Virus record (IMG/VR): IMGVR_UViG_3300046012_000091
Span: 1 to 35,834 of that record
Strand: one strand, 5' to 3'
DNA from: a virus
Length of the DNA stretch: 35,834 nt
Shown one piece after another: positions 5,173 to 31,536 of this stretch. The notes beneath the pieces were generated by a model. It did not search any database. It was not told where the DNA came from and saw only the letters and a program-made list of their open reading frames with translations. A program made the position numbers and the translations under genes. How positions within the stretch are numbered: position 1 is the stretch's first letter; every line of letters begins with the position of its first letter.

Positions 5173-6087
5173 ATGCCCGTCGCACTCGCACAGGTACGTG
5201 ACCTTCTCCTGCCCGGTCTTTGGGCCGTTACAGGTCAATATCCGCAACTCCAACGTCAGTGGCCGAAGGTCTTTAAGACCCGCAAGTCCAACATGGCGTT
5301 GGAGCGGTCGGTCTCGATGCGTTACCTCCCTGTTGCCGTTATCAAGCAGGAAGGCGCGCCGACCACATTCGATAATGCTTCCGGTGAACGCTACATCTAC
5401 AACCAGGAGCACAACGAGCTTGGTCTTGCGTTCGCTATCACGCGCAAGACCATCGACGACAACCTTTACAAGACCGAGTTCGGCCCGTCTGCCATGGGTC
5501 TTCGGGATGCATTCCTGAGGGCTGAGGAATCGTTCGGTGCGGACGTTCTAAATTCCGCAGCGACGTATAACACGTCTGTCGGCGGTGACGGTGTTGCACT
5601 CGGTAGTGCAAGCCATCCTGTCGATGGGGCGACCGTCTCGAACATCGCAAGTCCTGCCGCTTCATTGAACGAGACTTCGCTTCTCAACGCGCAAATCTCG
5701 ATCAACGCGAACTGGCGAGACAACGCCAACCAGCGCATGAATGCCAAGCCGAGACAGCTTGTCATTCCGCCGTCGCTGGAGCCTGTCGCAATCCGGTTGC
5801 TCAAGACCGAATTGCGCCCCGGCACGGCGATGAACGATGTCAACGCGATCCTATCCACGCAGGGCGGTATCCCGCAGGGCTACATGGTCTGGAATTACCT
5901 GACCAGTTCGTTCACGTGGTTTGTCACTACCGATCAGCCCGGCCTCGTGCATATGGATCGCATTCCATACGAGACGGATATGTCGGTGGAGTTCAGCTCC
6001 GACAACCTTCTGGTTAAAGGGTACCAGCGTTATTCGTTCAACTACAACGATTGGCGCGCAATTTATTGTTCGTTCGCCACTTCGTAA
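5173..6087 (+). CDS. Major capsid protein (Mu gpT-like)
   Basis: The 304-aa product resembles the gpT-type major head proteins. It has an N-terminal 'VRDLLLPGLWAVTGQYPQ', then 'YLPVAVIKQEGAPTTFDNA' and the helix 'GLAFAITRKTIDDNLYKTE'. It also has 'ADVLNSAATYNTS', 'GGDGVALGSASHPVDG', a 'NETSLLNAQISINANWRDN' segment, and 'KPRQLVIPPSLEPVAIRLL', all in the usual order for that family (HK97 fold). It lies between the capsid-associated protein and a terminator, the usual place for the most abundant virion protein. The start ATG 5173 is preceded by GGGGGAGA. No N-terminal protease domain is present, so cleavage is not predicted. Confidence 0.78.
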   Translation: MPVALAQVRDLLLPGLWAVTGQYPQLQRQWPKVFKTRKSNMALERSVSMRYLPVAVIKQEGAPTTFDNASGERYIYNQEHNELGLAFAITRKTIDDNLYKTEFGPSAMGLRDAFLRAEESFGADVLNSAATYNTSVGGDGVALGSASHPVDGATVSNIASPAASLNETSLLNAQISINANWRDNANQRMNAKPRQLVIPPSLEPVAIRLLKTELRPGTAMNDVNAILSTQGGIPQGYMVWNYLTSSFTWFVTTDQPGLVHMDRIPYETDMSVEFSSDNLLVKGYQRYSFNYNDWRAIYCSFATS

Positions 6088-7146: not shown

Positions 7147-7497
7147 ATGTCCCGCGCACGTCATCACGCCAAGAAACGCGCCTCCGGTGGTCGCGCCGAC
7201 TATTACGAGGGCGGTTCTTCCAACGTCGCCAAGGAAGCCGCAGAGAAAGAACAGAAGAAACATGGTGGCCGCGTCAAGCACGTGGGCAAGGCTCATGGCG
7301 GCAAGGTCAAGCATCGTCTGGACAAGCGCGCGAGGGGCGGGGCCATTTCTCCCAAGACTGCCGTTCACAAGCACGAATCCCACATGCACAAGGGCGAGAA
7401 GGAAACCAAGCTCAAGCGCGGTGGACGGGCAGGTTCGGACAAGGCTCCGTTTGCGCCGGGCAGCGCTACGCGCCCTTTCAGCAGCGCCGCGAACTAA
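7147..7497 (+). CDS. Lys/Gly-rich Gly-Gly-motif protein, 116 aa (0-frame product)
   Basis: Starts ATG 7147 after a GAAAGGA site. The product is highly basic with repeated 'GGR/GGK' units: 'RASGGRADYYEGGSS', 'KKHGGRVKHVGKAHGGKVKH', 'DKRARGGAISP', 'LKRGGRAGS'. These are like the units in the 1237-2046 protein. His/Lys-rich segments suggest metal or nucleic-acid contacts, which is inference. Near the 3' end lies a slippery heptamer and stem-loop (7473-7521). A -1 shift there would replace the last five residues (SSAAN) with 71 new ones, giving a 182-aa fusion. The 0-frame stop TAA is at 7495-7497, inside the loop of that stem. Confidence 0.75.
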   Translation: MSRARHHAKKRASGGRADYYEGGSSNVAKEAAEKEQKKHGGRVKHVGKAHGGKVKHRLDKRARGGAISPKTAVHKHESHMHKGEKETKLKRGGRAGSDKAPFAPGSATRPFSSAAN

Positions 7498-7521
7498 AAG
7501 ACGACGCCTACGCTCGCGGCG
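7473..7521 (+). promoter_or_regulatory. Candidate programmed -1 frameshift signal
   Basis: The heptamer C-CCT-TTC (7473-7479) fits X-XXY-YYZ in the frame of the 7147 gene: CCT and TTC would re-pair as CCC and TTT. Five nt later a perfect 8-bp GC-rich stem forms, CGCCGCGA (7485-7492) with TCGCGGCG (7514-7521), enclosing a 21-nt loop that contains the 0-frame stop. This is the standard spacing of slippery site plus downstream structure. The -1 frame stays open to 7694. Seen directly in sequence; use as a frameshift site is inferred. Confidence 0.65.
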
Positions 7522-7694
7522 GCTCTACGTGGATACAGGGCGCGATAAAGCATCCGGGCGCATTACATCGTTCGCTCGGTGTGCCTGAAGGCGAAAAGAT
7601 ACCTGCAAAGAAACTAGCCAAGGCGGCGCACTCGGACAATCCGACGCTGGCGCGCCGCGCTCGCTTGGCCGAAACATTAAAGAAGATGCACTGA
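7479..7694 (+). CDS. -1-frame extension domain, 71 aa (no own start codon)
   Basis: In the -1 frame relative to the 7147 gene there is an open stretch reading '...RRELKDDAYARGG' then 'STWIQGAIKHPGALHRSLG', 'VPEGEKIPAKKLAKAAHSD' and 'NPTLARRARLAETLKKMH'. I recognise the KHPGALHRxLGVPEGEKIPAKKL pattern as a widespread small domain of phage proteins, so this stretch is coding. There is no ATG, GTG or TTG in frame between the 0-frame stop and the start of the domain. Its stop forms TGATG with the start of the next gene, so ribosomes are expected to arrive in this frame. It is best read as the C-terminal domain of a frameshift product begun at 7147. Alternatives are a sequencing indel or a non-canonical start. 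Confidence 0.65.
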   Translation, partial: QQRRELKDDAYARGGSTWIQGAIKHPGALHRSLGVPEGEKIPAKKLAKAAHSDNPTLARRARLAETLKKMH

Positions 7695-8014
7695 TGGCTC
7701 TCGGCGCAACGGTTAGCTACACAACGACAGGGACGATGGAATCGTTGAATCTCGACCCATCGATTGCGCCGTTCAATGCGTCCGTCGTCGCCACGCTTGG
7801 TACGACCGGAACGTACAAGCTTCAATACAGTCTCGATGATCCGAACGTTGCAGACGCCGATGCGATCTGGACCGACAGCGTGAATATTCCATCCGGTACT
7901 ACATCTTCGGCGGTAACGAATTTCATGTTCCCCGTGTCTCGGATCAGGGTTGTCATTGACGCGCTCGATAGCACACTGACCTTGCAGTTCCTGCAAGGCT
8001 ATACGTCGAACTAG
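7694..8014 (+). CDS. Small beta-rich structural protein, 106 aa
   Basis: The ATG overlaps the stop of the -1-frame ORF (TGATG). The product is Ser/Thr-rich and beta-stranded: 'MALGATVSYTTTGTMESLN', 'KLQYSLDDPNVADADAIW', 'FPVSRIRVVIDALDSTLTL'. This gives an overall impression of an immunoglobulin-like or virion decoration domain. No catalytic residues or signal peptide. The family resembles small phage structural proteins of unknown function. Confidence 0.55.
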   Translation: MALGATVSYTTTGTMESLNLDPSIAPFNASVVATLGTTGTYKLQYSLDDPNVADADAIWTDSVNIPSGTTSSAVTNFMFPVSRIRVVIDALDSTLTLQFLQGYTSN

Positions 8015-8536: not shown

Positions 8537-9328
8537 ATGGCTGGACCTTCCGGCAATCGTATTTCTATTGACTCGGTTCCGTACCGACAGGACGGATACG
8601 ATCCAGTCAATTTCTATAATACGAAGCTGGACCCTTCACGTGATCTCTATTGGGGAACCATCCCAAGGCCGGATGATCCGACTCCGCGATGTATCGTCTA
8701 TCTCGTTACCAATATAAAGGTGATGGATGGTTGCTATATCGGTATGACAGAAAAGGGACTTCCTAAAAGAAAGCATCAGCATCTTTGGACGGCTAGAACT
8801 GGGCGCGGCGGCGTTTTCCATCGCGCGATTAGAAAGTACGGCGAGGATAGTTTCAGGTGGCGTGTTATTGAGGTATGGCCTGATTATTTTAGCGCGCTTG
8901 ATGCCGAACGGAAATGTATTCGCATTCTCAAGCCCGCTTACAACCTAACAGCAGGTGGAGGTGGCATTAAGGGATACAAGCACACGCCTGAAACAAAGAT
9001 AAAAATGTCTGCCGCTAAAAAGGGTAAGCCGGGTATTTGGGCTAGGCAATCGATGCCAGACCATTTGCGCAAGAGACTTGCTGATGCGCGCAGGTCGGAA
9101 CGAGGGAAAATTATCCCACCTGAAATTATCGATAAGTACCGGCACAATGCATCGCTGGCCAACAAGGCTAGACGGACAAGGGTTGTTCACCTTCAAAGCG
9201 GAGAGACTTTCGAAAGCGTCACAGCAGCAGCGAAAAAATTTGGATTTACGACTGGCGGAATTTGTTATCTCTGCTCCCACAAGTGTAAAGGTCGCCGCGG
9301 TCATTCATTCAGATACGTCGATAAATAA
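8537..9328 (+). CDS. GIY-YIG homing endonuclease with NUMOD3-like motifs
   Basis: The GIY-YIG catalytic core is at residues about 52-140: 'CIVYLVTN' (variant GIY), 'CYIGMT' with YIG at 67-69, 'KRKHQHLW', 'FHRAIRKYGEDSFRW', Glu124 in 'DAERKCI' and 'YNLTAGGGG'. It is followed by a NUMOD3-type DNA-binding motif 'GYKHTPETKIKMSAAKKGK' and a C-terminal helix-turn-helix-like segment 'ESVTAAAKKFGFTTG'. At 263 aa it is typical of freestanding phage homing enzymes. It makes a double-strand or nicking cut at a target site and spreads by repair. It sits between structural genes with little intergenic space, and its A/T-richer codons suggest recent insertion. The first 45 residues do not match the core and may be an inherited fragment. 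Confidence 0.85.
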   Translation: MAGPSGNRISIDSVPYRQDGYDPVNFYNTKLDPSRDLYWGTIPRPDDPTPRCIVYLVTNIKVMDGCYIGMTEKGLPKRKHQHLWTARTGRGGVFHRAIRKYGEDSFRWRVIEVWPDYFSALDAERKCIRILKPAYNLTAGGGGIKGYKHTPETKIKMSAAKKGKPGIWARQSMPDHLRKRLADARRSERGKIIPPEIIDKYRHNASLANKARRTRVVHLQSGETFESVTAAAKKFGFTTGGICYLCSHKCKGRRGHSFRYVDK

Positions 9329-23079: not shown

Positions 23080-24996
23080 ATGGCTTACGGCAATCTACAT
23101 CCCAGTCTAGGCGCGTTCACGGGCGGAACCGTGCTCGGAAATCCGAGCGCCGTTAATGCCGTGCCGTCTTTGACCTCAAATCCCGTACTTGGGATACCTG
23201 GGTCTGTATTGGGAACGCTTGCCCTTGCCGGGTCTGGATCAGGGACAGCCCTTATTACGCCCCAAGCGGCGGCTGGGACTCCAACCCTTACCCTTCCAAC
23301 GCAGTCCGGCACGTTTGCCGTCTCGGTCTCGGCCCCGCTCGCTCTTAACGCCATTACGGGTGCTCTCTCTATTACAGGGGTGGCGGGGACGGTTCTGGCG
23401 GGGGCTACTCCGGCCTTTACAGCCACGCCTACTTTGGGTGCGCAAGGCGTAGCCACTGGCAAATTGAATCTGTCCGGTACGACCTCCGGCACGATTACGA
23501 TCCAGCCGCAGGACGCCGCAGGAACATACAACTGGAATCTGCCGACAACGGCTGGCGCTTCCGGGCAGGTGCTCCAGTCTGCCGGTGGCGGCTCGGCTCC
23601 CATGACGTGGAGCACGGCGACATTCCCGTCAGCGGCCACGAATGTCGGGACGATCCTAAGAGCTGATGGCACGAACTGGGTTGCTACTACCGCGACCTAT
23701 CCGGCCACGACGACGATCAATCAGATTCTCTATTCGTCGTCCGCGAGTGTTATTTCAGGCTTGGCTACTGCCAACGGTGGGTTGCTTAACACCAGCGCAA
23801 CCGGCGTCCCGTCGATAACGGCAACTCCTACGCTTGGCTTGGCTGGTACGACGGCGGGAACGATTGCTTTCTCAGGTGTCAGTAGCGGCACGACGATACT
23901 TGCTTCGGCTGCGGCAGCGAGCGGCACGCTCACGCTTCCCGCCGCGACTGATACGCTTGTCGGCAAAGCCACGACCGACATCCTCACCAACAAGACTTAT
24001 GACACGGCGGGAACTGGCAACGTATTCAAGGTCAACGGTCTTGCGGTTTCCGATCATAATGGCACAGGCAATTTCATTCTTTCAACGTCTCCCACGATCA
24101 CGTCGCCTACTTTGAACGGGAGTCCCGTTCTTGGCGCTGCGACCGCGACGAGCATTAACAAGGTTGCGCTTACCGCGCCAGCATCCAGTGCGACTCTAAC
24201 GCTTGCAGATGGCACGACGCTGACGACAGCGGCGAGCTTGAGCTTTCCAGCCATTGCGCAGGGCGGCCTGATCTATGGCTCGGCCACGGCGGTATTTTCC
24301 GCGCTCGCCAAAGACACTAACGCAACGCGCTATTTAGCCAACACCGGCACGTCAAATAATCCGGCGTGGGCGCAGGTCAATCTTGCTAACGGTGTTACCG
24401 GGAATCTCTCGGTCAACAACCTCAATAGTGGAACGTCTGCATCGGCAACGACATTCTGGCGCGGTGACGGAACATGGGTAACGCCTGCTGGCGGCGGCGA
24501 TGTTGTTGGTCCTGCTGGTGCTACAAGCGGCAATCTGGCGTCGTTTAATGGAGCGACAGGTAAATTAATTCAAGACGCCGGTATTGCGTACTCTACTAAC
24601 ACGTTTACGCCAACAGTTGCCTTTGCAACACCGGGAACGTCCAGTTTTTCTTACGCAACGCAAACTGGCTTTTATATCCGTGTCGGAAGTCTCGTTTGGG
24701 TTGAAGTCGTCCTGACATTCACGCCGACCATCGGCACAGGCTCAGGTGATCTTTTAATCGGTACGCTCCCGGTCGCTATTAATGGCTCCACGAGTCCAAC
24801 TGGAACTGTCGGCGGTCTTAACAACCGCTGGACATGGCCCGCCAGCACCACAGAACTTGTCGCTCGTCCATCAACTTCCACGACACTTGTTCTGGTCGGT
24901 CAGGGATCGGCTGTAACACCTGTAGATGTAGGCGCGTCTAATATGTCAACGGGTAACGCACATACGGTGCGTATCTCAATCGTCTATTCGGCTTAA
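23080..24996 (+). CDS. Long tail fibre protein, 638 aa
   Basis: I start at ATG 23080 (MAYGNLHPSLGAF) with GGAAAG 7 nt upstream; an in-frame TTG at 23065 overlaps that SD. The shaft is Ala/Thr/Gly/Ser-rich, with repeats of the type 'ATPTLGLAGTTAGTIAFSG', 'TPTLGAQGVATGKLNLSG' and 'TSPTITSPTLNGSPVLGA', the usual phage fibre pattern. 'FWRGDGTWVTPAGGG' marks the end of the shaft. The C-terminal 130 residues ('YATQTGFYIRVGSLVWVEV', 'GSGDLLIGTLPVAINGS', 'GNAHTVRISIVYSA') look like a jelly-roll receptor-binding head. The gene end overlaps the convergent esterase by 3 nt. Confidence 0.8.
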   Translation: MAYGNLHPSLGAFTGGTVLGNPSAVNAVPSLTSNPVLGIPGSVLGTLALAGSGSGTALITPQAAAGTPTLTLPTQSGTFAVSVSAPLALNAITGALSITGVAGTVLAGATPAFTATPTLGAQGVATGKLNLSGTTSGTITIQPQDAAGTYNWNLPTTAGASGQVLQSAGGGSAPMTWSTATFPSAATNVGTILRADGTNWVATTATYPATTTINQILYSSSASVISGLATANGGLLNTSATGVPSITATPTLGLAGTTAGTIAFSGVSSGTTILASAAAASGTLTLPAATDTLVGKATTDILTNKTYDTAGTGNVFKVNGLAVSDHNGTGNFILSTSPTITSPTLNGSPVLGAATATSINKVALTAPASSATLTLADGTTLTTAASLSFPAIAQGGLIYGSATAVFSALAKDTNATRYLANTGTSNNPAWAQVNLANGVTGNLSVNNLNSGTSASATTFWRGDGTWVTPAGGGDVVGPAGATSGNLASFNGATGKLIQDAGIAYSTNTFTPTVAFATPGTSSFSYATQTGFYIRVGSLVWVEVVLTFTPTIGTGSGDLLIGTLPVAINGSTSPTGTVGGLNNRWTWPASTTELVARPSTSTTLVLVGQGSAVTPVDVGASNMSTGNAHTVRISIVYSA

Positions 24997-26123
24997 TTCA
25001 TCATTGCCTTAAGCGCGAGCCACTTTCTTTTTCCAATCTCGATTTGCGATTGAGCGCAGTAGTGAACTGACGTTCCGGGTTGGCCCATCATGGCATCGCT
25101 CTTAAGTCCTGCGGGGGAGACGTAAGCAGCATTGGTTATTTGGGATGCCGCGTTTTGGATAGCTGCCGTGAAGGCGCTTTTGATTTGCAATGCAGGTCCG
25201 TCACCTGAAAGCCAATCCGGCACCATGCCGACCATGAGAATAGGCACTTGGCCTTGAGATATGTCGGTTCTGATCCTGTGCATGAACTGGATAAGTAGTG
25301 CCTGGTATTGATCTGCGGTTAAGCCTGTACCGTTGACAGCATCGTTTATGTCAAATTCGCCTTGGTCCCACGAAATAGCGATCACTCTGTTGTTCCCCGG
25401 CATGGAAAGAGCAAGTCTCGCGCGCTGGATAAAGTCCGTATAGAGTGGTCCAGAGTAATCAGACCATTCTTCCAGCGATGTTGATCCTTGAGCCGCAGGA
25501 ACTATCAGAACTCTCCGGTTCGGCTTTAGTGCGAAGCGCGTATAATTCCGGGCGAATGTAAGTACGCTGCCCATTGCAACATCGTTCTCGTTCATGTTGT
25601 GAGAGTGAAGGCCATCAAAGTTGTGTCCGTTCTGCCAATAGCCAACCGGTACGATCAACCCGTCAGATTTTCCATAGCGTCCTATCTGTAAAATCTTCTC
25701 ATCAAAAATCGCGCTTTGCAGAGGATCGCTAAACGGTCCAAAGCCCGTTCCCACTTCGTTGGATTGCCCGGCTGAAAGGATAATGTCGTAACCATCGCCG
25801 TGTGGCGGGTGATAATTGAACGTCACCTTAGCCGTGCAGACCACACCATTGGCTCCGGTTATCGTGTAGGTGTGCATCCCTAGGACATTGGTAGCCCACG
25901 CGCGAAACGATCCGCGCAGCTTAGTGGCTGTCGCGACAAGACTGTCAGGCGTGTTGATGTTCGAGCGCAGGATTTGTGCCGGAACTTGGCGTGGGCCGGT
26001 CAACCGCCATTGGCCGGTGAACCACTGACCGGCTGTAACGACCGTTGGCAGAGTCAGTTCGCAACTCTCTGCGGGAGATGAAAGCGCGGCTAGCGAAAGC
26101 ATGGCTGCGGCAACCAGTTTCAT
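24993..26123 (-). CDS. Secreted SASA-type carbohydrate esterase, 376 aa
   Basis: From ATG 26123 the product begins with a signal peptide (MKLVAAAMLSLAALSSPAES). An N-terminal beta-domain (about 22-105) precedes an SGNH/SASA esterase domain. It has 'IILSAGQSNEVG' with nucleophile Ser121, 'VLIVPAAQGSTSLEEW', 'SWDQGEFD' (WDQGE at 252-256) and a late His354 in 'SVHYCAQSQIEIG'. The catalytic Asp usually three residues before that His is replaced (Thr). Related enzymes remove O-acetyl groups from sialic acid or other sugars. It is a lone reverse gene between fibre and endolysin with its own -10 box, typical of a moron gene. It could modify host surface polysaccharide or be a virion-associated receptor-processing enzyme. 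Confidence 0.75.
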   Translation of the reverse strand: MKLVAAAMLSLAALSSPAESCELTLPTVVTAGQWFTGQWRLTGPRQVPAQILRSNINTPDSLVATATKLRGSFRAWATNVLGMHTYTITGANGVVCTAKVTFNYHPPHGDGYDIILSAGQSNEVGTGFGPFSDPLQSAIFDEKILQIGRYGKSDGLIVPVGYWQNGHNFDGLHSHNMNENDVAMGSVLTFARNYTRFALKPNRRVLIVPAAQGSTSLEEWSDYSGPLYTDFIQRARLALSMPGNNRVIAISWDQGEFDINDAVNGTGLTADQYQALLIQFMHRIRTDISQGQVPILMVGMVPDWLSGDGPALQIKSAFTAAIQNAASQITNAAYVSPAGLKSDAMMGQPGTSVHYCAQSQIEIGKRKWLALKAMMN

Positions 26124-26130
26124 TTTCGAG

Positions 26131-26136
26131 ATTATA
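26131..26136 (-). promoter_or_regulatory. Consensus -10 box for the esterase gene
   Basis: TATAAT on the - strand ends 7 nt before the esterase ATG, so initiation would fall at or next to the start codon and give a leaderless or nearly leaderless mRNA. No clear -35 hexamer 17 nt upstream. The SD before this ATG is weak, which fits leaderless use. Confidence 0.45.
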
Positions 26137-26172
26137 CACCACTCTGGCGTGTAGGCGCTAGGCAGGAAGCAC

Positions 26173-27003
26173 ATGATTTCCAAGGCTTCGATAGACCTCA
26201 TCATCGCATGTGAGGTCAGTTCGCAGACCTATTATGAAGCGCACTATCGGCGTCCAGAGTGGCCGGGCGGGGCGTCGGGTATCACAATCGGGATCGGCTA
26301 CGATATTGGCTATTCCGATCAGACTAAATTGCGAGCCGATTGGTCCGAACGCGTCAGCGAAACAATGCTGCGCGTCATGGAAAAGTGCCTAGGTGTCCGT
26401 GGCACGGATGCAAAAGACCTGCTCCCGTCCATCCGTTCATTGATCGATATTCCTTGGGAACAGGCGAACGCGGTTTTCATCAATCGGGACGTTCCCGACT
26501 GGACAGCTCAGGTATGCGCGGCAATCCCTGGGGCTGAGAAGCTACCGGCAGATTGTTTAGGGGCACTGGTAAGCCTCGCCTACAACAGAGGATGCTCTTT
26601 CAAGTCGCCGGGTGACCGCTACGCCGAGATGCGGGCTATTCGCGCGCATGTCATGGCGGGCCAACTCGATAAGGTCCCCGACGATTTCCGTTCCATGAAA
26701 CGCCTGTGGCCGACCGTGAAGGGTCTGCGGGACAGACGGGATGCCGAGGCCAAGCTGTTTGCTCAGGGCGCCTCTCTGAGTGCCACTTTGCCGCCGTTGC
26801 CATCGCCGCCTGATGTTGAGCCGGTCGATAAGCCTCCTAGTCAGACCGCAGGGACGAAACACGCTGTAGCGGCGACTGCCATAGCTGGCGGTACGGCGGC
26901 AGCCATCAACTCACATTCAATGACAATGATCGCCGTATTTGTCGTGGCAGGAATCGCCATTGCAGCAGCGGTCTATTTTCTCTGGCCGAAGAAAGGCAAT
27001 TAA
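26173..27003 (+). CDS. GH24-like endolysin with C-terminal membrane segment, 276 aa
   Basis: ATG 26173 follows AGGAAG. Residues 1-200 fit a phage lysozyme (GH24-like). 'IDLIIACEVSS' carries the catalytic Glu14 and 'GGASGITIGIGYDIGY' the following turn and strand, as in T4 lysozyme-type enzymes. 'LVSLAYNRGCSF' and 'LDKVPDDFRSMKRLWPTVK' plus 'GLRDRRDAEAKLF' complete the fold (the R-D/R-R-x-x-E end). A Pro-rich linker follows, then a single hydrophobic helix at about 252-271 ('AVFVVAGIAIAAAVYFLW') with a short Lys tail. There is no N-terminal SAR anchor. It cleaves peptidoglycan at lysis; the C-terminal anchor is unusual. Confidence 0.78.
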   Translation: MISKASIDLIIACEVSSQTYYEAHYRRPEWPGGASGITIGIGYDIGYSDQTKLRADWSERVSETMLRVMEKCLGVRGTDAKDLLPSIRSLIDIPWEQANAVFINRDVPDWTAQVCAAIPGAEKLPADCLGALVSLAYNRGCSFKSPGDRYAEMRAIRAHVMAGQLDKVPDDFRSMKRLWPTVKGLRDRRDAEAKLFAQGASLSATLPPLPSPPDVEPVDKPPSQTAGTKHAVAATAIAGGTAAAINSHSMTMIAVFVVAGIAIAAAVYFLWPKKGN

Positions 27004-30060: not shown

Positions 30061-30535
30061 ATAGGTCCGCCGCGTCGGCTTGATAGTCGGGATGATGCCG
30101 CTTTAGAGCGCCCCTTCTTGCCCCTTCTCTTTGGCGACGCTTGCCGTCCTCCGAGATGTTGCACCGCTGATCGTGATACGATGCCCATCGACAGTTCTCC
30201 AGCGAATAGGGGCCATTCGGGTCGATGCGGTCGAGTGTCATTCCTTCTGGGCGCTCGCCCATATCGGCAAGGAAGCAAGAAAAATTACTCCATCGGTCGC
30301 AAACCTTAATGCCGCGACCGCCGTAAAGAGAGTAATTGCTATTATTCTTATTTTTGCAGCGATTGTTCATCCCGGCCCATGCACCATAGAGCGGGTGCTT
30401 TCTCAGGCCGGTTTGTTTTTTTATAGGTAGTTCTGGCTCAATTCCACCAGCATAACGCATTCTGTAATAATGCGCGCAACACAGACCGCGCGCTTGCCGT
30501 TTCCGACCGCATCCTTCAACTGAGCATATTTTCAT
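30059..30535 (-). CDS. HNH-type endonuclease with integrase-like C-terminus, 158 aa
   Basis: The start overlaps the integrase stop (ATGA). The N-terminus has a zinc-knuckle 'CSVEGCGRKRQARGLCCAHYY'-type cluster (C4, C9, C19/20, H22). The rest, 'YGAWAGMNNRCKNKN', 'YGGRGIKVCDRWSNF' and 'MTLDRIDPNGPYSLENCRW', is typical of small phage HNH/AP2-associated homing enzymes. The last 12 residues 'HHPDYQADAADL' copy the integrase ending 'HHDPDYQSDAADL'. At DNA level, 27 of 32 positions match between 30066-30097 and 30539-30570. It probably cleaves at a phage target and is mobile. Confidence 0.7.
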   Translation of the reverse strand: MKICSVEGCGRKRQARGLCCAHYYRMRYAGGIEPELPIKKQTGLRKHPLYGAWAGMNNRCKNKNNSNYSLYGGRGIKVCDRWSNFSCFLADMGERPEGMTLDRIDPNGPYSLENCRWASYHDQRCNISEDGKRRQREGARRGALKRHHPDYQADAADL

Positions 30536-31536
30536 AAATCCGCCGCGTCTGATTGATAATCAGGATCATGATGTGCATACACCGTTTCGAGCGTCCGCGT
30601 TGTCATCCCCAAGAACCCCGCCGCCTGCCAAATATCGACGCCCCTTTGCATCAGCCACGTCGCCCGCGTGTGCCTGATCGTGTGCGGTGTCACGCCTTCC
30701 AGCCCTGCCGCTTTGACAGCCCGATTCCAGGCATTGTGCGAGTCCCTGATCGGCTTGCCGTCATAATGAACCACGTATCGGGTCAGTCCGGCGTCCAGTC
30801 TTTTCCAGCGCCGCAGGTGAGCTAGAATCTTCCGCCCGAGCTTGACCCGTGGCCGGCGCTTGTTGGCGCGCTCGGTATCATCCGGCGATTTCCTCAACAT
30901 GATCCCGTTGTCGAAGTCGATCCAGCTCCATTGGAGAGACTTGATAACCCCGCTGCGTGACCCGGTGTGAAGCGCCAGCAGGATAAACCGGCGTAGATGC
31001 TCTACCCGCCGTGCTGCCCTTAGCAATCTCGCCGCCTCTTGCTTGGAGAGCCACCTGTCCCTCGGATTAGGCTCTGGCGGCATGATAACGGTCGGGATAA
31101 GCGGCAGGGGGCCATGTTCCTTGTGGTAGTGCTTGATGGCGGCCTGTAGGCGCTTTAGCTCGACCCGCGCCATCGAGGCTTTGCGGCCTTCGGCGTATGA
31201 CCGGCAATTATGGGCCGTCACGTCCGAGAGCTTCCTGTCGCCCCACCATTTTTCAAGGTTGCCCACGAAATATTTCGTGTTCCGGTCTGGTCTTTTATGG
31301 GGAACGACTTCGAGCATGTAGGCTGCCAGAATCTCGACAATTAAGGGTTCCGCACCCGGCGTGGGCCTGTATTTGATACCGACGTATTCCGCGAGGCACT
31401 GTTCGGCTTTTGCAAGCTCATTCTTATTGAAGCCTGTGCGCGTGAATGTCTTTCCGTCACGGATGACCCACGTCCCGCGCTTTGCATCGAGATAGAGTCT
31501 TGCTCCTTTGGCTCTACGCGGCACTGGCGAACCCAT
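30532..31536 (-). CDS. int: Tyrosine site-specific integrase, 334 aa
   Basis: The N-terminal arm-binding part is 'GARLYLDAKRGTWVIRDGK'. The core-binding part is 'ILAAYMLEVVPHKRPDRNT'. The catalytic domain has Arg194 in 'HTGSRSGVIKSLQW', His285 and Arg288 in 'TPHTIRHTRATWLM', and the nucleophile Tyr320 in 'LETVYAHHDPDYQ'. The His/Trp before the Tyr is Met311 in 'FLGMTTRTL', a variation I associate with alphaproteobacterial phage integrases. The length is normal. Its first 196 nt overlap the Xis-like gene. It integrates and excises the phage genome, so the phage is probably temperate. Confidence 0.9.
   Translation of the reverse strand: MGSPVPRRAKGARLYLDAKRGTWVIRDGKTFTRTGFNKNELAKAEQCLAEYVGIKYRPTPGAEPLIVEILAAYMLEVVPHKRPDRNTKYFVGNLEKWWGDRKLSDVTAHNCRSYAEGRKASMARVELKRLQAAIKHYHKEHGPLPLIPTVIMPPEPNPRDRWLSKQEAARLLRAARRVEHLRRFILLALHTGSRSGVIKSLQWSWIDFDNGIMLRKSPDDTERANKRRPRVKLGRKILAHLRRWKRLDAGLTRYVVHYDGKPIRDSHNAWNRAVKAAGLEGVTPHTIRHTRATWLMQRGVDIWQAAGFLGMTTRTLETVYAHHDPDYQSDAADL

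Follow-up and report, generated by a model that had tools for sequence, protein, structure and literature searches.

How does a phage make a conserved protein domain that lies in the -1 frame relative to the upstream gene and has no start codon of its own? The question is raised by a gene lying two places downstream of the major capsid gene in IMG/VR virus record IMGVR_UViG_3300046012_000091 (35,834 bases; hereafter, the window). Portal, GroES and other virion genes belong to the same module. The gene's -1 frame, open between 6927 and 7691 and closed by a stop at 7692-7694, contains no ATG, GTG or TTG before the domain's Trp at 7530. The domain carries the motif WIxGAIKHPGAL.

We propose, from sequence comparison and without data from ribosome profiling, a reporter or virion proteomics, that programmed -1 ribosomal frameshifting very probably yields both a 116 aa and a 182 aa form. 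The majority of ribosomes would translate the 0-frame ORF to its TAA, giving the basic protein. A fraction would re-pair in tandem on C_CCU_UUC and go on in the -1 frame, appending the conserved helical KPGAL domain to the shared residues, and these slipped ribosomes would terminate where the next gene starts. Slippage in vivo remains an inference, for which we have no efficiency figure.

Table 1 Elements of the putative frameshift gene and neighbouring genes in the window
Feature	Position	Strand	Remarks
Major capsid protein	5173..6087	+	Context gene
Short form, 0-frame ORF	7147..7497	+	116 aa basic protein, rich in Gly/Lys/His/Arg
Slippery heptamer C_CCT_TTC	7473..7479	+	Phase for tandem P/A-site slippage; CCU to CCC, UUC to UUU
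Spacer AGCAG	7480-7484	+	Between heptamer and stem
8-bp hairpin	7485..7521	+	7485-7492 pairs with 7514-7521; encloses 0-frame stop; possible stimulator
0-frame stop TAA	7495..7497	+	Sits in hairpin loop
-1 frame extension after slippage	7479..7694	+	71 aa plus stop TGA; open, without canonical start
Conserved WIQGAIKHPGAL domain	7530..7691	+	54 aa; weakly related to Fusellovirus VP2 (PF25632)
Next gene	7694..8014	+	Start overlaps -1 stop (TGATG)

The initial annotation had read CCCTTTC as an X-XXY-YYZ site in the 7147 frame, and the phase C_CCT_TTC is indeed the required one. Its coordinates all hold, as do the missing start before the domain and the TGATG at the end of the -1 frame, shared with the next ORF. 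Recomputing the products gave the same result: the predicted fusion is 182 aa long and its first 111 residues are common to the short form. The annotation also described an 8-bp GC stem placed 5 nt past the heptamer. Its pairing is exact, the 5' arm CGCCGCGA (7485-7492) being perfectly complementary to the 3' arm TCGCGGCG (7514-7521), and it encloses the stop, but its stability is unremarkable: the 65 nt 3' of the heptamer have an MFE z-score of +1.0 against dinucleotide shuffles, i.e. they are not more stable.

Among the main genes of the window, which offer 7,739 in-phase codon positions, CCCTTTC occurs only once and in-phase XXXYYYZ heptamers of all kinds number 16. Because a slippery heptamer of any kind is expected in the last 24 codons of ORF 7147-7497 with p about 0.21 under a synonymous-codon null, the window by itself is a weak, inconclusive case for frameshifting, and it is the relatives that decide.

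Relatives came from searches of viral contigs in which the domain and the upstream protein served as queries; about 100 distinct stretches were read out of at least 589 domain-bearing viral stretches. Clade A comprises the window and ten loci (L004, L028, L043, L056, L086, L087, L091, L096, L097 and L213). Whether homologous phages keep the heptamer, a comparison that the annotation had left to be made, has a clear answer here: CCCTTTC is identical and in phase at 11/11 loci, with the domain in -1 and the -1 frame open up to it. Pairwise nucleotide identity within the clade is 49-80% (median 61%) over the 120 nt before the site, and again 49-80% from heptamer to domain. All upstream proteins end in (H/R/N)-P-F-S-S-A plus a short tail. 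In the alignment, the Ser-Ser codons just 3' of the heptamer vary (AGC, AGT, TCC, TCG) while the heptamer does not; local codon usage predicts CCCTTTC with a mean chance of about 8% per locus. The slip site of clade A is thereby conserved beyond the demands of the encoded peptide. Most loci also keep the overlap of -1 stop and next start, as TGATG or TAATG. The z-scores of 3' structure in this clade range from +1.6 to -5.2 and are inconsistent.

A codon-neutral scan separates the heptamer from the peptide. Searching viral contigs for all encodings of V-G-[AS]-D-K-H-P-F-S-S-A returned 16 loci. Seven use CAC CCT TTC, and the -1 domain is present in 7/7. The other nine use different codons: five have the -1 domain behind a different site at the stop (GGGAAAA in L235, L248 and L250; AAAATAG in L239 and L240) and four have no domain (L236, L245, L246 and L249). 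CCCTTTC is thus found in 7/7 loci that need it and in 0/9 that do not (Fisher p = 9e-5), and the heptamer therefore follows the need for that particular site, not the peptide. The p-value is a guide only, since the contigs largely overlap the ones described above and the loci are mutually related.

The frameshift reading extends further than was first proposed, to a family-wide recoding module instead of an isolated case. We pooled 38 non-redundant -1 representatives, none more than 85% identical to another over 360 nt. A slippery site is in phase in 34 of them, where a synonymous null predicts 5.0. The corresponding tail probability is very small but only formal, as it ignores shared ancestry. 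In three of the four -1 loci without a heptamer, the stop is immediately preceded by a P-site codon that can re-pair (CCCTTAG, AAAATAG, GGGGTAG).

Clade E, whose domain motif is WMxxAVHKPGAL, has its slip site at the 0-frame stop or a few codons from it, in the form of GGGAAAA, AAAAAAA, GGGGGGA, AAAAAAG, AAAGGGG or GGGGGAA. A covarying hairpin begins a few nt past the stop; 91% of its cells are paired, and eight cells change on both sides, compared with 2.3 in shuffles (0/500 as high). The clade B hairpin, at the equivalent place, covaries too: it is 79% paired, with 11 such double-sided changes against 4.4 (again 0/500 as high). In clade B the upstream ORF ends in GGGGGAG TCN TRA, and the overlap shrinks to as little as 16 nt with no usable start. 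GGGGGAG resembles the GGGGGAA or 'fivetwo' motif, which according to PRFect marks about a thousand annotated SEA-PHAGES frameshifts and works through tRNA-Glu re-pairing on GGA via a G:U pair (PMC10885494). By inference from this analogy, GGGGGAG would permit the same re-pairing.

The same kind of P-site codon abuts the stop in L048, L139, L199, L203 and L208 (CCCTTAG, AAAATAG, GGGGTAG), which suggests, as far as codons can tell, single-tRNA -1 slippage at the stop. A full heptamer is absent from L048, L199, L203 and L208; L139 is the exception.

The phase, the open -1 frame, the absence of a start, the conservation of the site and the alternative sites in relatives are all read directly from the DNA. 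The domain could be a separate small protein, made without frameshifting by termination-reinitiation within the overlap at a non-AUG or otherwise unrecognised start. Coupled independent translation does occur in the family: in the sister set L002, L037, L054, L075 and L167 the domain lies in +1 with an ATG or GTG at the stop (ATGACTGA/GTGACTGA), an arrangement best read as coupled separate translation, and in L034 and L040 the domain stands alone behind its own ATG. However, ATG, GTG and TTG are all absent from the overlap in 36 of the 38 non-redundant -1 loci, near-cognate starts are missing from most -1 loci, including the window, and a separate protein leaves unexplained why the exact heptamer is kept only where the domain is in -1. 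We regard it as improbable.

Still less probable is transcriptional slippage, in which RNA polymerase realignment would make a fusion mRNA. The AAAAAAA or GGGGGGA runs of some lineages could permit it, but none of CCCTTTC, GGGAAAA and AAAGGGG is a homopolymer, all sites keep the XXXYYYZ phase with respect to the 0 frame, and the covarying 3' hairpins suit ribosomes. The least credible account, to which we give almost no weight, is that the gene is truly single-frame and its frames differ through an indel from sequencing or assembly, or through decay. Single-frame fusions of the upstream protein and the domain do exist, in L024 (149 aa) and L077 (176 aa), and the near-duplicate L021 does resemble an indel artefact. 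Against this, 38 non-redundant loci, drawn from many metagenomes, share the frame relation, and their slip sites are clade-specific; the repetition of that relation in independent contigs also excludes the indel at 7470-7500 that the annotation had named as a possible refutation. Single-frame homologues without the heptamer were to count against the proposal as well. Two single-frame lineages were found, but they leave slippage unrefuted where the frames differ; L024 and L077 show instead that the fusion of upstream protein and domain is a natural product.

We considered a +1 frameshift at GAC_UGA_C, similar to that of RF2, for clade C and rejected it: re-pairing of GAC on ACU is poor, and in several members an ATG or GTG lies exactly at the site, so that start-coupled translation is the simpler reading. 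In L020, L031, L041 and L071 the domain is in +1 with GAY TGA C at the stop and no ATG or GTG, and some of them have a purine-rich stretch upstream; from these features, +1 frameshifting or a non-AUG start could operate. In L036 (2989-3031) the domain is in the same frame as the upstream ORF, past a TAG and without a start codon; stop readthrough is possible, or another way of starting.

On the domain tree, which is poorly resolved, parsimony counts about 32 switches of access mode. At least seven slippery sequences are found in one syntenic gene across sister phages, together with in-frame and domain-less versions, and for this reason the family is a natural experiment in the origin, exchange and loss of recoding signals. 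We lean towards, without insisting on, a broader reading of programmed -1 frameshifting here: that an entire uncultured tailed-phage lineage holds a VP2-like domain out of frame, downstream of a basic head-module protein, and has replaced the signal many times while maintaining the two-form output, with selection acting on a set ratio and not on any one signal. The signals concerned are CCCUUUC, GGGGGAG, GGGAAAA, AAAAAAA, GGGGGGA, AAAGGGG and others, plus the +1 or start-coupled and in-frame versions.

Fusellovirus VP2 binds DNA. Its family, PF25632, is the only one that Pfam returns for the domain; the window's match scores 24.4 bits, below the gathering cut-off of 27, and 44/60 members match at E up to 0.01. 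The AlphaFold model of the domain is all helical (H4-11, H15-20, H30-37, H42-57), at moderate confidence (mean pLDDT 66.6). A search of solved structures with the domain gave only chance matches, mostly designed helical proteins, and the top matches in a viral fold library were uncharacterised Caudovirales proteins only. Where the flanking sequence is long enough, loci of clades A, B and E have a major capsid homologue upstream of the frameshift gene. VP2 belongs to the virion and has homologues in unrelated bacterial viruses; in one study its deletion left SSV1 assembly and infectivity unaffected (PMC9608457). The motif W-I-x-x-A-I-K-x-P-G-A-L is shared with SSV1 VP2; in contrast, the window's match is partial besides being sub-threshold, and we found no report of VP2 made by frameshifting. 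The likeliest role, at about even odds, is that of a virion-borne head-module protein in two forms, touching packaged DNA via a basic tail and a VP2-like domain. This role is inferred without binding data, from the sub-threshold PF25632 match, the gene position and the basic composition.

The nearest precedent is the Ig-like domain that coat and tail proteins of phages acquire in frame or through a -1 or +1 frameshift, with frameshifted examples in T3 gene 10, Lactobacillus phage A2 and Listeria phages A118, A500 and PSA (Atkins et al. 2016, PMC5009743). Both systems place a small C-terminal domain on a fraction of a virion-module protein, with -1, +1 or in-frame access. Unlike the Ig-like beta-sandwich, the domain modelled here is helical and KPGAL/VP2-like; its carrier is a small basic head-module protein and not a coat or tail tube protein, and the slip site turns over within one syntenic gene. 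In T7 gene 10A/10B (cited in PMC5009743), -1 slippage likewise produces a minor extended head-module protein; the T7 protein and its extension are unrelated to ours, and the site is non-canonical with a distant 3' element. Lambda G/GT also slips by -1 near the end of the upstream ORF and adds a C-terminal part in -1. That gene belongs to the tail module, where tail length depends on a fixed ratio of the two products, whereas the window gene is in the head module, one gene from the major capsid gene, with no link to a tape measure.

The frameshift, almost certainly real, is then a fresh case of an established mechanism, backed by unusually abundant comparative data. It brings one more protein family into the small group of phage genes with conserved programmed frameshifting beyond tail chaperones and Ig-like extensions, and it corrects the annotation of these phages, in which the domain would otherwise be lost or called a start-less fragment. 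The annotation's author knew of no frameshift in this type of phage protein; nor did we find one described in the open-access literature, most subscription papers being outside our scope. A nucleotide search of isolated phages gave no match, and among isolates with distant domain homologues none was found with the arrangement of basic protein and -1 domain. The distant homologue of HTVC027P is a stand-alone gene starting from ATG, in Tunturi_3 the only copy is divergent and likewise has an ATG of its own, and the Rhizobium phage matches lie inside annotated hypothetical genes.

In nine loci (L011, L033, L035, L039, L051, L068, L074, L078 and L081) the same KPGAL domain is in frame within another gene, in the vicinity of portal and GroES. 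The window gene at the equivalent place (1237-2046, +) lacks it, as if, from these sequences, the domain moved between genes. Elsewhere in the window, a free-standing homing-endonuclease-like gene (8537-9328, +) is inserted past the frameshift gene, within the structural module, with NUMOD3 above the Pfam cut-off and GIY-YIG just under it. A tyrosine integrase gene (30532-31536, -) suggests that the phage may be temperate, and a SASA-type carbohydrate esterase is encoded at 24993-26204 (-).
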